DNA of 37,764 nucleotides. It comes from Chloroflexota bacterium. GTDB taxonomy: Bacteria > Chloroflexota > Anaerolineae > Caldilineales > Caldilineaceae. A program made the position numbers and the translations under genes. The stretch spans positions 1 through 37,764 of the forward strand of contig JAJRVT010000109.1 of NCBI GenBank assembly GCA_024277175.1, written 5' to 3'. Below the pieces are notes generated by a model that was given only the letters and a program-made list of their open reading frames with translations, searched no databases and was not told the DNA's origin. Shown piece after piece: positions 24,334 to 30,935 of the stretch; the stretch's first letter is position 1, and each line of letters starts with the position of its first letter.

Positions 24334-24355
24334 GATTTCCCGGAGCGGAGGAAGG

Positions 24356-24448
24356 ATAGAACGCGGATTTACCGGATTTGGCTGATTTTTACGGATTTTC
24401 AAAGAAAATCCGTAAAAATCAGCCAAATCCGGTAAATCCGCGTTCTAT
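24356..24448. repeat. Hairpin repeat, family 1, copy D (perfect 45-bp stem)
   Basis: 24356-24400 and 24404-24448 are exact reverse complements with an AAA loop. The ends are ATAGAACGCGGAT and ATCCGCGTTCTAT. TTGTTTTT follows on the plus strand, so in this convergent gap it would work as a strong terminator for the alcohol dehydrogenase gene. Confidence 0.97.
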
Positions 24449-24453
24449 TGTTT

Positions 24454-25707: not shown

Positions 25708-25803
25708 AATAGAACGCGGATGTACCGGATTGGACGGAAACTGTCAGATTTTTTAGAAAAAATCCGTGTGAATCCGTCCAATCCGGTACATCCGCGTTCT
25801 ATT
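25708..25803. repeat. Hairpin repeat, family 1, copy E (perfect 31-bp outer stem)
   Basis: 25708-25738 and 25773-25803 are exact reverse complements, beginning AATAGAACGCGGATGTACC. The inner part pairs less well. On the minus strand, the terminal TAG of the right edge (25801-25799) is the stop codon of the methyltransferase gene. Confidence 0.95.
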
Positions 25804-26398
25804 CTTCCTTTCGCCAGATCCACCAATCCGAGCCGCGCTGGCCGTGGAAGCCAGGCTGGCGTTCGAGCAGGTGGAAGCGCGCGCTGAAGAGGGCCATGAT
25901 GGCGTCCGGCTCCACGCCCGGCGGGCCGTCCTCCTCGCCTGCGGGTCGGGGGTGGGCGGCGTAGAGTAGGTAGTAGCCACCGACTGCCAACCGCCGATCC
26001 AGTGCGGCCGCGTAGGCTTCCCGATCTTCTCCGTCCAGCCCGTGGAAGCAGCCCACATCAAGGGCCGCGGCCAGTTTCACCCGGAAGAGGTCCAGATGGG
26101 TCACGCTCCCCTGGACGCCCACCCAGGGCAGGCCTTCCCGGCGGGCTGCGTCCCGGGCCTTCTGAATGGCCACCAGGGAGAGATCGATGGCCGCCACCCG
26201 GTAGCCGTTGCGGGCCAGCTCCCGCCCGTGGGTCCCCGTGCCGCAGCCGATGTCTATGGCCCAGGCTCCCTTTCCCGGATGCTCGCGGGCGAACTCGATG
26301 ATCTCCGGCGCGACCGTTCCGCGATCCCAAGGGGTGGTCCCGTCCCGATAGCGGGCGTCCCACCAGTCTGCATTAATGCGTTTGACGTTCTCGTTCAT
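25799..26398 (-). CDS. SAM-dependent methyltransferase (class I, TPMT/TehB-like)
   Basis: A 199-residue Rossmann-fold methyltransferase. Motif I is AIDIGCGTGTHGREL (near residues 47-61), preceded by the TTPWDRGTVAPEI segment found in thiopurine methyltransferase/TehB-like proteins. RVAAIDLSLVAIQKAR is the acidic-loop region binding the ribose. The substrate is unknown. The stop codon is the TAG at the edge of the hairpin repeat E. The upstream side is another hairpin repeat. A decayed copy of its N-terminal third is at 30345-30511. No convincing ribosome-binding site precedes the ATG at 26398. Confidence 0.9.
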   Translation of the reverse strand: MNENVKRINADWWDARYRDGTTPWDRGTVAPEIIEFAREHPGKGAWAIDIGCGTGTHGRELARNGYRVAAIDLSLVAIQKARDAARREGLPWVGVQGSVTHLDLFRVKLAAALDVGCFHGLDGEDREAYAAALDRRLAVGGYYLLYAAHPRPAGEEDGPPGVEPDAIMALFSARFHLLERQPGFHGQRGSDWWIWRKEE

Positions 26399-26421
26399 GT
26401 TATCGATGCCTTTAAACTACG

Positions 26422-26528
26422 ATAGAACGCGGATTGGGCGGATGGCGCTATGCGCCCACTACGTGATCGTCACAGGTTTTTCAAAATTCGCGAAAATCCG
26501 TTCAATCCGTCATATCCGCGTTCCATTC
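26422..26528. repeat. Hairpin repeat, family 1, copy F
   Basis: The ends are ATAGAACGCGGAT on the left and ATCCGCGTTCCAT on the right; the family's final CTA has become CCA. The stem is imperfect and contains a small inner GGCGC/GCGCC hairpin. The right part encodes the last residues of the alpha/beta hydrolase on the minus strand. Confidence 0.85.
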
Positions 26529-27437
26529 CATGATCGCATCCACCACCGCGCCCGGCTGCTCCTGATGGATGTTGTGGCCGCCGTCGGGGATGATGACCAA
26601 GCGCGCGCCGGGCTGGAGCCGGACCAGTTTGTATGCGTTCTCCACGGGGTTGAGCGGGTCCTTCTCCCCCCAGATAGCCAGGGTGGGGACCTGCAGCCCG
26701 GCCAGATCCTGGGGCAGGGTCTTCTGCCGGCGAGGGAGTTCCCGGGCCATGCTGCGCAGGATGGAGAAGAACGCCCGGCGCTGGTCATCGTCCCAGACCC
26801 GCTCGTTGACCCGCTGGTAGAGGAACTCACGCTCGGCCGCGGGCAGGCCGTCCAGGTCCTGGTAGAAGGGGGCAAGGCTGCGGTAGGCGGCCTCCGGGTC
26901 CTTGCGCAGGCGGTTGTATTGCCACTCGCCCACACCCGGGATCAGGAAGAGGAGCATGCCCAGGCTGGGCCGTCCGCCGACCGAGACCAGGGAGCCGTCC
27001 AGCAAAATCAGGCGCTCCACCCGCTGGGGCCGGGCCAGGGCCATACTGTGGGCGATGATCCCGCCCAGGGAGTGGCCGACCAGGATGACCCGGTCTATGG
27101 CCAGCGCATCCAGCAATTCGAACAGGACATCCTGGTAGAAGGCCAGGGTGTAGGCGCGTTTGGCCTTGTCGCTGCGCCCGAAGCCGGGCAGATCCGGCGC
27201 GACGACCCGCCGGTCCGCGGCCAGGGGCGGCAGCACATAGCGCCAGGCGTCGGCCTCATCGCCCAGGCCGTGGATGAGGAGCATGGGCGTCTCGGTTTGG
27301 GGCGCGACGTCCGCCTGTCCGGTGTCGTAAAGGAAGAGGCGCGCTCCGCTTTCAGACAGGTTTATTTCGCGGACATATGGCTCGAACGGCGGCCAGGGCC
27401 GCATGGGACCGGGGTAGGGGTTTGCGCGCGTCGTCAT
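26502..27437 (-). CDS. Alpha/beta hydrolase
   Basis: A 311-residue alpha/beta-fold hydrolase with the oxyanion segment LLIHGLGDEAD, the nucleophile elbow GHSLGG (Ser123), an acid in WGEKDPLNP and a histidine in DGGHNIHQE. The family covers esterases, lipases and C-C hydrolases; no substrate can be named. The start ATG overlaps the stop of a 41-codon upstream ORF as ATGA, so translation is probably coupled. The last residues (from NAD to the stop) are encoded by the hairpin repeat F and look like a readthrough extension past a lost stop codon. A fragment of a decayed paralogue is at 30600-30715. Confidence 0.93.
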   Translation of the reverse strand: MTTRANPYPGPMRPWPPFEPYVREINLSESGARLFLYDTGQADVAPQTETPMLLIHGLGDEADAWRYVLPPLAADRRVVAPDLPGFGRSDKAKRAYTLAFYQDVLFELLDALAIDRVILVGHSLGGIIAHSMALARPQRVERLILLDGSLVSVGGRPSLGMLLFLIPGVGEWQYNRLRKDPEAAYRSLAPFYQDLDGLPAAEREFLYQRVNERVWDDDQRRAFFSILRSMARELPRRQKTLPQDLAGLQVPTLAIWGEKDPLNPVENAYKLVRLQPGARLVIIPDGGHNIHQEQPGAVVDAIMEWNADMTD

Positions 27438-27559
27438 GGTGATGCCGGGCGGCCGAAATCCCGTGGTTGAAAGCGGTTATCGTTGCGGAATCGTTCGTCA
27501 GTCTCTTTGAACAGCTTCCAGACTTCATCGAGGGTCACTTGGCCAGCTTGCTCACTCAT
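27434..27559 (-). CDS. 41-codon leader ORF coupled to the hydrolase, DUF3782-like N-terminus
   Basis: MSEQAGQVTLDEVWKLFKET and the following DERFR resemble the N-terminal coiled coil of DUF3782 (PD-(D/E)XK-related) proteins, which typically repeat ETDRRF-type heptads. After this the sequence departs and ends at residue 41, so it is probably the remains of a longer gene. It has an excellent ribosome-binding site (GAGGAGG) and a good promoter upstream, and its TGA overlaps the hydrolase ATG. It may therefore serve mainly to carry ribosomes to the hydrolase gene. A longer frame upstream with a start at 27721 has no support. Confidence 0.6.
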   Translation of the reverse strand: MSEQAGQVTLDEVWKLFKETDERFRNDNRFQPRDFGRPASP

Positions 27560-27598
27560 AGATGCCTCCTCTGCATCAGGGGAAAATGCCGTGGCTGG

Positions 27599-27627
27599 AG
27601 TATAGCACAGCCGGACGGGATGTTCAA
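27599..27627 (-). promoter_or_regulatory. Promoter of the leader ORF-hydrolase unit
   Basis: On the minus strand, TTGAAC (27627-27622) and TATACT (27604-27599) are 17 bases apart, and TGC before the -10 makes it an extended -10. A copy of this promoter region, with a 9-base insertion in the spacer, remains in the decayed duplicate at 30747-30784. Confidence 0.75.
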
Positions 27628-27730
27628 CGGGGTGGACCGCATCCCGGAACGCCAGCCGTCGCCAGCAGATCCAGGCTGAGGCTGCGCGCGTTGCCTTCCA
27701 GCCGGGTAATTGTTCGTTCATGGGTGCGTT

Positions 27731-28217
27731 TCATCCCCGTTTTTCTTCGACCATGCGCGTGAAACGCGCTCCGGTCTCATACGCCTGTCTCAGGAACGCC
27801 TCTTCCGTCTCGATGCCGATGTTTTTGATCACCACCTCCATGCTGATGGGTTTGTGATAGGCGGACTGTGCGATGAGGCCTGCCAACCGTTCCCAGTCTA
27901 TCGCGTCTGAAAAGATGAGCCGGTGGTGAATAGAGCGCAAAAAGCCGTCCGATCTTGGCGAAGTTGTCCCCGGACTCGGTCGTGGTGACCACCCCTGCTT
28001 GGAGCGCGGGCGAGTCGATTAGGTTTTCGACCGCGATGCAGACGCCGCGCGCCCGGGTGTAAGGCTCCAGTTCATCCAGACTACGGCGTAGTTGATCCCA
28101 GGCCACGGCGTTGAAGGGCGCGTATGCCGGTGCAACCGTATCCGGATAGACGTGCATGATCACTACATCAGCCCCCAGCCTGGCCGCGAAGTCGATGCGG
28201 TTCTTCACCAGTTCGAC
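27731..28217 (-). pseudogene. Sugar-phosphate isomerase/epimerase-like TIM barrel, fragment
   Basis: The first part, beginning [19 protein letters not shown] with MHVYPD and GVCIAVENL, matches AP-endonuclease-2/xylose-isomerase-like TIM barrels. After about residue 90 the frame is lost and a central piece is missing. Another frame resumes with [20 protein letters not shown] and runs to the family's C-terminal end (27731). The N-terminal strands are also absent because the fragment is joined to a dppF fragment at about 28217. The metal-binding residues of the middle strands are gone, so it cannot be active. Confidence 0.7.
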
Positions 28218-28364
28218 CCCCAGGGTCTCGCCGCGGTTGATGGTGAGGGTGATATCGTCCACCGCGCGCACGTATCCCTGGACGCGGCCGAAGATCCCTT
28301 CGCCCCGGATGGGGAAATAGACTTTGAGGTTCTTCACTTCCACCAGTAGTTGTTGATTCGACAT
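28218..28364 (-). pseudogene. Oligopeptide ABC ATPase DppF/OppF, first 49 codons only
   Basis: The start [20 protein letters not shown] and the continuation to INRGETLG are the N-terminus of a DppF/OppF-type ATPase. The sequence switches to the epimerase frame exactly where the Walker A motif should begin, so all nucleotide-binding motifs are missing. It starts 3 bases after the dppD stop codon, the usual D-F order. The fused reading frame stays open across the joint. Confidence 0.8.
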
Positions 28365-28367
28365 GGT

Positions 28368-29360
28368 TCAGGTCGCTGGCTCCGGTTCGTAGAGGAAACA
28401 ACTGACGCTATGGGTGGGGGAGACCTCGGTCACGCCGGGCGCGCGCTGATCGCAGACCCCGATGATGCGCTGCGGACAACGGGTGTGGAAAAGGCAGCCG
28501 CGGGGGCGCGCCAACGGGCTGGGAATATCGCCCTCCACAGGCGTGAGGCGCTGGTCCAACTGATCCAGCCGGGGGATGGCCTTGAGCAGCCCCTGGGTGT
28601 ACGGGTGCTGTGGCGTGCGGATGATCTCGCGCGTCGTCCCCCGCTCCGCGATGCGCCCCAGGTACATGACCGCCACCTCGTCCGCGATCTGGGCGATGAC
28701 GCCCAGGTCGTGGGTGATGAAAATGATGGCCATGGCGAACTCGTTCTTGAGATGGCGCATGAGGTCCAGAATCTGGGCCTGGATGGTCACGTCCAGGGCG
28801 GTAGTTGGCTCGTCGGCGATGAGTAGGGACGGTTCGGTGGAGAGCGCCAGCGCGATCATGGCGCGCTGGCGCATGCCGCCGGACAGCTCGAATGGGTACT
28901 GATCGACGCGCACCTCCGGGTTGGAGATGCCCACCCGCTTGAGCATGCCGATGGCCAGGACGCGGGCTTCGCTTTTGCCGATGTCCCGGTGCTCGCGCAC
29001 GGCTTCGATGATCTGGTTGCCGATGGTGTAGACCGGCGAGAAGGAGGCCATGGGCTCCTGGAAGACCATGGCGATCTCATCGCCGCGAATCTCGCGGATG
29101 ATCTCGCTTTTGGGGTCCAGCGTCGCGATATCGACGATATGGCCGTTGCGGCGCTGGAAGATGATGGAAGACTCTTCGTTCACCATCGCGGTGTCCGGCA
29201 ATAATTGCATGATCGTCTTGACGCTCACGCTTTTGCCGGAGCCGCTCTCGCCCACGATCCCCAGCGTGCGCCCGCGATGGACGTCGAAATCGATGCCATC
29301 CACCGCAGTGATCACGCCCTCGTCGGTGCGAAAGGCCACCTTCAAGTTGCGGACGCGCAA
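28368..29360 (-). CDS. dppD: Oligopeptide/dipeptide ABC transporter ATPase DppD, start region lost
   Basis: A 330-codon frame with all ABC ATPase motifs: Walker A GESGSGKS (37-44), signature [13 protein letters not shown], Walker [13 protein letters not shown], and the C-terminal oligopeptide-ATPase extension with CLFHTRCP. Nothing in the domain is broken, but no ATG or ribosome-binding site precedes it. The first possible codon is a TTG at 29360, and the upstream DNA is a truncated dppA read in another frame. The permease genes dppB and dppC, normally between dppA and dppD, are missing. With dppF also cut, it has no partners here and is probably a recent relic. Confidence 0.8.
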
Positions 29361-29371
29361 CAGCGCATCGC

Positions 29372-30281
29372 TGAAAATATGGTCTGGCCCACCGCATTGC
29401 CCAGGGCGACGCTGTAGCCGCCGTTTTCCTCATTCTCGCCCAGGCTCATACCCGTTTCCTCCATAGCCTGATCGAAGAAGTGTTTGGGCTGGAAGGGTTG
29501 GATATAGGTGGTGGCGAAGAAGCTGAGAATGCCGGGCGTCGGCGTGGGGAGGGTGAATTTGACGGTGGCGTCGTCAATGGCTTCCGCGGTCATGGTCCCG
29601 TCGCCGAACGTGGCCCAGCCAGGCGTCTCCGGATAGACGTCGGGGTTGAGGATGATCTCGTTCATCCAGAACTCCACGTCGGCGGCAGTGAAAGGCTCAC
29701 CGTCGGACCACTTGTGTCCTTTGCGCAGGAAGAAGGTCACTTCGGTGAAGTCATCGTTCCATTCCCAGCCCTTGGCCACGTTTGGCTCGATGGTCGGTAA
29801 TCCTCGCCGTAGCGCACCAGGTTGACGTGGCGCGTGCTCAGGAAGTCGGATGTGCCGGCCTCCGTGGCGTTGGAGAGGGCGTGGAACTGGCCGCCGTATG
29901 TTCCGATGGCCTCATAGGGCACGATGACCAGCGGCTCTTCAGGCAGCCGTTCATCCACCGGCGGCAGTTCGGAGTTGCGGGTGATGCGGGCGTTCAGGTC
30001 GCTGATGGCGGGATTCTCGCTGAAGCTCAGTTCGCAACTGGCCGCGTCCTGGAACTCGGCCAACTCGTATTGGCGGAGATATTCGCCCGGGGCCACGTCC
30101 ATGCGATCGGCCAGGGTCACCGTGGGGCAACCGCCGTCGGCCGCGGCTTCAGTCGTCGTCGCTCCTTCCTGACTTGCCGCCGGGGCAGCTCTTCGGCCGG
30201 GGCGCCGCCGCCGCAGCCAGCCAGGATCAGCAGCGCTGTCAGGCCAATGATCAGGAGCCAGGTTCGTTTCATTCGTCTCAT
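29372..30281 (-). pseudogene. Peptide-binding lipoprotein DppA/OppA (SBP family 5), frameshifted and truncated
   Basis: From the ATG at 30281 (GAGGAG upstream), the signal peptide MKRTWLLIIGL...LILAGC is intact with a lipobox. A one-base loss near 30190 moves the frame to ATTTEAAADGGCPTV and on to RYGEDYR. A second one-base loss near 29796 shifts again to VAKGWEWNDDFTEV, then the family-5 hallmark LRKGHKWSDGEPFTAADVEF. The protein breaks off around SVALGNAVGQ (near 29380), where it meets dppD. About half of a normal SBP is present. Confidence 0.85.
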
Positions 30282-30344
30282 TTTTTCTCCTCACGAGTAG
30301 GGGGGAGCAGGGGCGGAAACGGAATACGATGCGCTAAAAGCGGT

Positions 30345-30511
30345 GCATTGCGGTGTATGCGTTATTGTCCATGGCTCAGGCGTTCCCGTTCGGATGTCAG
30401 TGGGCGAATCCGATGAGATCCGGCGCGGCCATTCCTTTGTCCCAGGTCATGATCGCCGCGCACTGGCGGACGTCATGCCACGCGGCATCGCCGGGCTTGA
30501 TGTTTTGTTCA
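30345..30511 (-). pseudogene. Decayed copy of the methyltransferase N-terminus
   Basis: After a one-base shift close to the ATG at 30511, the minus strand reads NIKPGDAAWHDVRQ...TWDKGMAAPDLIGFA, which lines up with NVKRINADWWDAR...PWDRGTVAPEIIEFA of the methyltransferase at 25799-26398. A further shift follows, with HPNGNA resembling HPGKGA; then similarity ends before motif I. The DNA around the ATG, including ACTACGATAGA, also matches the functional copy. Confidence 0.75.
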
Positions 30512-30599
30512 TGTTGTCGATAATCTTGGAACTACGATAGAGAACGCGCGTGGAGCGGACTGGCTTACGCGCGTTTTTGCGGAACTGGGAGCTTTCTCT

Positions 30600-30715
30600 G
30601 TGTCGGACGATCAGGGTGGAGGCCTGCAATCCGGACAGATTTTTGGGCAGCGTTTTCGGCTGACAGGGGTGATCCCGGGCCACGCTGCGCAGAATGTCGT
30701 CCAGATCACAAGCGC
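30600..30715 (-). pseudogene. Decayed fragment of an alpha/beta hydrolase paralogue
   Basis: The minus-strand peptide MARDHPCQPKTLPKNLSGLQ corresponds to MARELPRRQKTLPQDLAGLQ in the hydrolase at 26502-27437. Both flanks are missing. A ribosome-binding-site-like AAGGAGG and a TGCTATACT promoter copy lie just upstream (30729-30752), in the same order as in the intact locus but with the leader ORF and most of the hydrolase deleted. Confidence 0.8.
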
Positions 30716-30800
30716 CTCCTTTTTTTCAGGGAAAATCCGTGGGCGGAGTATAGCACATTCAATTGGGACAATTGGGATGTTCAACCGGGAAAAATCCACC

Positions 30801-30902
30801 GGGTGCATTCTCTGTTGGGGGCGAAATTCCCGTGCCTCGAACGTGCCGGGGAGTTCGGAACTCCCCGGCACATGCCTGCGACCCCCAAATCAGAATGCAC
30901 CC
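30801..30902. repeat. Large two-stem hairpin repeat
   Basis: Outer arms GGGTGCATTCT (30801-30811) and AGAATGCACCC (30892-30902) are exact complements, followed inward by GGGGG/CCCCC tracts. The inner stem GTGCCGGGGAGTT (30843-30855) with AACTCCCCGGCAC (30859-30871) is a perfect 13-bp hairpin with a CGG loop. It lies just downstream of the secreted FnIII-like protein gene and may end that operon. It is the only copy in the window. Confidence 0.85.
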
Positions 30903-30935
30903 AAATCCACCCAAATTCTTCTGGGCGAGAGGGGG

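Follow-up and report, generated by a model that had tools for sequence, protein, structure and literature searches.

The intact locus and its partial copy

The window, by which we mean the whole stretch of 37,764 nucleotides analysed here, carries an intact hydrolase-methyltransferase locus on the minus strand (27627-25799; copy A) and, beyond a run of peptide-transporter gene remnants, a fragmentary version of it on the same strand (30366-30784; copy B). Along the minus strand, copy A reads promoter, AGGAGG, a 41-codon ORF, hydrolase gene, hairpin and methyltransferase gene. Copy A and the DNA between the copies contain the following features.

25799-26398, minus strand: intact methyltransferase (TPMT-like; PF05724 TPMT, E 1.9e-14; also PF13649)
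26422-26526, no strand: dispersed hairpin in the hydrolase/methyltransferase gap (inverted repeat I5)
26502-27437, minus strand: intact alpha/beta hydrolase (PF00561, E 2.5e-38)
27434-27559, minus strand: ORF of 41 aa ("leader"), its two ends matching a single ORF on contig C418
27599-27627, minus strand: promoter, TTGAAC, 17-bp spacer, TATACT, read directly from the sequence, with no mini-transposon beside it
27777-30294, minus strand: peptide-transporter (dpp) remnants between the copies, from Pfam profile matches

The 41-codon ORF had been called a leader in an earlier note on this DNA. Its two halves correspond to the beginning and the end of a single 144-aa reading frame on contig C418 (E 0.016 and 0.097), which has only weak, nuclease-like Pfam matches. 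Because both halves point to the same ORF, an internal deletion is suggested, and the reading frame is probably what is left of a gene for about 144 aa rather than a leader peptide. The hairpin is a dispersed palindrome of about 95 bp (AATAGAACGCGGAT...ATCCGCGTTCTATT), of which at least 40 copies were scored in the genome, and is thus not specific to the locus; members of the family in the window lie at 25708-25803, 26422-26526 and about 24349-24452. Between the copies, the solute-binding protein gene is truncated (SBP_bac_5 profile positions 6-101 of 368), one transporter ATPase is nearly complete (ABC_tran plus oligo_HPY), and the start of a second ATPase is joined to a TIM-barrel isomerase fragment (partial AP_endonuc_2 match). 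These transporter remnants (27777-30294) show several internal deletions, one of which created the ATPase-isomerase fusion. The dpp remnant lies between the copies today and may or may not have been in place at the time of copying; the earlier note had proposed that the block was duplicated on both sides of it.

Copy B is made up of the following parts.

30366-30512, minus strand: remnant of the methyltransferase 5' end, aligned to 26251-26398 (69%, E 1e-14)
30513-30572, minus strand: remnant of intergenic sequence and one arm of the dispersed hairpin, with AACTACGATAG(AG)AACGCG common to 26414-26442
30612-30696, minus strand: remnant of 28 hydrolase codons (ILRSVARDHPCQPKTLPKNLSGLQASTL), 78% identical without gaps to 26679-26763 (E 3e-15)
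30715-30720, minus strand: copied ribosome-binding site AGGAGG, matching 27565-27570 of copy A
30747-30752, minus strand: -10 box TATACT, hexamer identical to 27599-27604
30760-30777, no strand: perfect 9-bp tandem repeat, CAATTGGGA twice, read directly from the sequence
30779-30784, minus strand: -35 box TTGAAC, hexamer identical to 27622-27627; similarity to copy A ends just past the box

Comparing 30300-30900 with 26200-27750 by BLASTN returned three collinear plus-strand blocks, namely 30366-30564 against 26251-26446 (69%, E 1e-14), 30612-30696 against 26679-26763 (78%, ungapped, E 3e-15) and 30714-30789 against 27564-27632 (74%, E 1e-7). The similarity stops at 30366 and includes roughly 50 codons from the start of the methyltransferase. 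When the whole genome (5.2 Mb) was searched with the copy B stretch, 27564-27632 was the sole match besides the stretch itself (E 1.7e-4). These results bear out the earlier note, which had described 30345-30790 as a decayed and internally deleted copy of the methyltransferase-hydrolase locus with its pieces in the order of 27627-26270; we found the order collinear with 27627-26251, and all of the listed pieces are there, i.e., the promoter, the additional spacer bases, AGGAGG, KTLPKNLSGLQASTL, AACTACGATAGAGAACGCG and the methyltransferase start.

Decay and origin of copy B

Copy B carries the lesions of a pseudogene: a frameshift, two TGA codons, large deletions and a promoter spacer of 26 bp. 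Its methyltransferase part starts with ATG at 30512-30510 and then runs into the frameshift and both in-frame TGA codons, giving the translation HEQN...MTWDKGMAAPDLIGFAH*HPNGNA*AMD, as compared to ...TPWDRGTVAPEIIEFAREHPGKGAWAID in copy A. The first large deletion extends from the start of the "leader" ORF to about codon 222 of the hydrolase, and the second took the end of the hydrolase together with much of the hairpin. On the plus strand, the promoter reads GTTCAA/AGTATA (TTGAAC/TATACT on the minus strand), and its spacer is longer than the 17 bp of copy A because CAATTGGGA is perfectly repeated; the nine extra bases recorded previously are exactly this second repeat unit. The hairpin remnant that had been reported is also present (AACTACGATAGAGAACGCG), but it belongs to the dispersed family described above and is no signature of the locus.

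In the 28 hydrolase codons, copies A and B differ at 7, 4 and 8 first, second and third codon positions, respectively, corresponding to dN 0.21 and dS 0.45 (NG86; dN/dS about 0.46). Polarising the replacements with two outgroup hydrolases from other genomes of the same class placed six as derived in copy B and one in copy A, and left four unplaced. Both measures are weakly resolved because the segment comprises only 28 codons; they fit what would be expected from one constrained and one neutral branch.

Taken as a whole, copy B is very probably the pseudogene remnant of a duplicated block of promoter, hydrolase and methyltransferase start, with a mini-transposon, most likely of the kind mobilised by ISKra4-type transposases, inserted separately at its edge (see below). 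The comparison gives good support to a duplication with later erosion, because the copies agree in the order of their parts and share intergenic sequence, no other homologue of the stretch was found in the genome, and the changes lie on copy B. The dispersed hairpin would have inserted between the hydrolase and methyltransferase genes before the block was copied, since it occupies the same position with the same flanks in both copies. Copy B would then have decayed by two large deletions, small indels, stop codons and, in its promoter, the disabling 9-bp tandem duplication.

Alternatively, copy B might descend from an old second hydrolase-methyltransferase pair, acquired for example from another strain, and not from a local duplication. 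This is an unlikely origin, although the copies have already diverged by about 22-30% and no tandem junction is visible, as such a history would predict. It has to contend with the identical hairpin position, intergenic sequence and promoter of the two copies, and also with the distance of all other hydrolases: the nearest intact homologues, found in two other genomes (G037 and G010), are 58-60% identical at the protein level and occur as single copies in unrelated gene settings, and for this reason they provide no synteny. The intact second copy in relatives that the earlier note had proposed to look for was found neither in this genome nor in 60 relatives, a set that includes no genome of the same genus; none of the 60 carried the locus in synteny, and no relative emerged when the hydrolase by itself was used to query 84,980 genomes.

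A remaining function of copy B, e.g., through a regulatory RNA or by encoding a small protein, has in its favour a 78-codon open frame at 30447-30683, which carries the hydrolase segment. We consider this very improbable, because the promoter spacer measures 26 bp, a good start next to the ribosome-binding site is missing from the frame, Pfam detects no domain in it, and the changes fall on all codon positions. Finally, a chance similarity of GC-rich sequence has a negligible probability even though some of the smallest blocks are near chance level, since the blocks are collinear and their chained alignment scores 245, far above 100 dinucleotide shuffles (121±11, maximum 158) and other segments of the window (117±11), which settles the check for alignment beyond chance that had been suggested previously.

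A mini-transposon and its distance to promoters

The outer edge of copy B is occupied by an element which was absent from the earlier note.

30792-30800, no strand: left target-site duplication AAATCCACC, identical to 30903-30911
30801-30902, no strand: mini-transposon (MITE) of 102 bp with the ends GGGTGCATTC...GAATGCACCC; further near full-length copies have 9-bp duplications
30903-30911, no strand: right target-site duplication AAATCCACC, identical to 30792-30800

The element is palindromic, with terminal inverted repeats of 21-nt arms (86% complementary; I9) and GGGTGCATTC ends, and it lies upstream of copy B's -35 box, from which it is separated by exactly 16 bp. About 18 more near full-length copies are present in the genome, about 19 in all (L028-L046), each flanked by a different 9-bp duplication of its own, and a longer form of about 193 bp has the same ends. 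The ISKra4 group (p-MULT 4) is defined by inverted repeats of 18-39 bp with a conserved terminal C/G and by direct repeats of 8-9 bp, and the 102-bp element shows all of these features, the direct repeat being AAATCCACC here and other 9-mers at the other copies. The inner palindrome GTGCCGGGGAGTTCGGAACTCCCCGGCAC (30843-30871) also occurs alone at about 20 sites of the genome and once in the genome G011.

Nearly all 102-bp copies are accompanied by a sequence of the type TTGACA, about 17 bp, TATAAT that starts exactly 16 bp from one end of the element. A promoter-like -35/-10 pair stands at this offset in 23 of the 57 distinct ends of this genome, as compared to at most four ends at any other offset (0-4 at the neighbouring ones) and a background of 0.36% for pair scores of at least 8, determined by random sampling. 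At the other end of the 102-bp form, no such pair was found. We rejected general promoter density as its cause, because the 72 ends of the hairpin family, used as a control from the same genome, show no register, with at most two ends at any offset. One of the target promoters lies directly before a tRNA-Thr gene. The promoter of copy A is the same but has no element beside it, which shows that the -35 box is part of the target site and is not supplied by the element. The insertion distance falls within the 15-17 bp upstream of a sigma70/sigmaA -35 box that is known for the ISKra4 group; copy B, with the spacing of its promoter now disturbed, fits the set only imperfectly.

The same ends were found in other Chloroflexota MAGs by a pattern scan. 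An independent MAG, Gw_SlDig_bin_20, contains a 286-bp form with 9-bp duplications, and promoter-like pairs occur there in 12 of 78 ends at offset 16, in 7 of 78 at offset 15 and in at most three elsewhere, the -10 box being clearer than the -35 box. Another genome (G063) shows a -10 box at 39±1 in 9 of 30 ends, and two more (G062 and G064) gave single in-register sites, their ends being too few or too weak overall. In MAG-265 (Anaerolineae), we found a full-length element of 1368 bp (L265, 1575-2942) with matching ends GGGTGTATTYGGAAATGGGGGCAGAA; it is flanked by the target duplication TGATCACGG, and a -10 box, TACACT, lies in register. It encodes a probable ISKra4-type transposase distributed over two ORFs. 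These match NF033572 with E values of 1.2e-14 and 1.4e-53, but owing to the split the scores fall short of the curated cut-off. The genome to which the window belongs, which is incomplete, gave no transposase of the ISKra4 type, and a search there for a full-length mobile element by ends and transposase yielded only the 102-bp and roughly 193-bp forms and fragments. One candidate for a full element (L195) was rejected, as it has no transposase inside.

From these data, the non-autonomous 102-bp element would have entered its site, 16 bp upstream of the -35 box in copy B, in an event separate from the duplication. The enzyme that moved it was most likely a transposase of the ISKra4 type (prokaryotic Mutator-like). 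The placement of the element relative to the -35 box makes it probable that the promoter could still be recognised when the element arrived, either because the 9-bp duplication had yet to occur or in spite of it. The register might also have arisen by selection removing all other insertions rather than by a transposase choosing promoters, and insertions into genes would indeed be removed. We regard such purging as most improbable, since it would not produce a register exact to about one base at offset 16, and the same 16-bp distance has been published for related transposases (PMC3942029). As to how a transposase would choose promoters, we tentatively consider that it may read them via bound RNA polymerase and not via a DNA motif; this possibility, somewhat short of an even chance, is suggested by the second genome, where the -10 box is in register and the -35 box is poor. 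If it is true, every insertion would be the fossil trace of a once-active promoter, including the broken one of copy B.

Relation to known pseudogenes and promoter-targeting elements

As a pseudogene, copy B is ordinary in kind. It shares collinear remnants, frameshift, stop codons, deletions and a broken promoter with other pseudogenes formed by duplication and deletion and shows no essential difference from them; the hairpin and the mini-transposon make its history easier to read, and it serves mainly to illustrate how a locus is duplicated locally and then decays.

Promoter targeting by such elements has been described before, so we dropped the idea that the register is unprecedented. Guerillot et al. 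(2014; PMC3942029) reported that TnGBS/ISLre2 and several ISs of the ISKra4 group insert 15-17 bp upstream of the sigmaA -35 region and create 8-9-bp duplications; they proposed that orientation is set by dissimilar ends and that a contact between transposase and polymerase complex may be involved. The one-sided promoter position and the two differing ends of the elements in this genome fit that orientation model. Because they share the features described there, the elements are most likely ISKra4-derived MITEs, judged by their ends, duplications and insertion sites, and would fall within the promoter-targeting group already described. They add Chloroflexota MITEs to this group, and such elements can mark promoters, dead ones included. 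Their many copies in several genomes represent a natural set of insertion sites for asking what sets the 16 bp, with the -35 box, the -10 box and bound polymerase as the candidates.

The closest known system is the ISKra4 group itself (p-MULT 4; PMC3942029), which likewise has ends starting with GGG, makes 9-bp duplications and inserts at a distance of 16 bp from the -35 box on its upstream side, and the relative with matching ends in MAG-265 encodes a probable transposase of this type. The copies in this genome differ in being non-autonomous derivatives of 102 or about 193 bp, and in having the promoter on one defined side; promoters at both ends were described for ISKra4 elements whose repeats are near-perfect (PMC3942029). 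TnGBS and ISLre2 (p-MULT 3; PMC3942029) are alike in their oriented insertion 15-17 bp upstream of the sigmaA -35 region, but their transposase is of a different lineage, and they are large conjugative elements or ISs found mainly in Firmicutes. Among MITEs, the parts available of a review on prokaryotic elements report an intergenic preference and no fixed promoter distance (PMC10969869). MITEAba12, as far as the available part of its description extends (PMC6382973), is also a non-autonomous element of about 110 bp with 9-bp target duplications, but it prefers AT-rich sites and has internal promoters, and a fixed distance to host promoters is not reported there.
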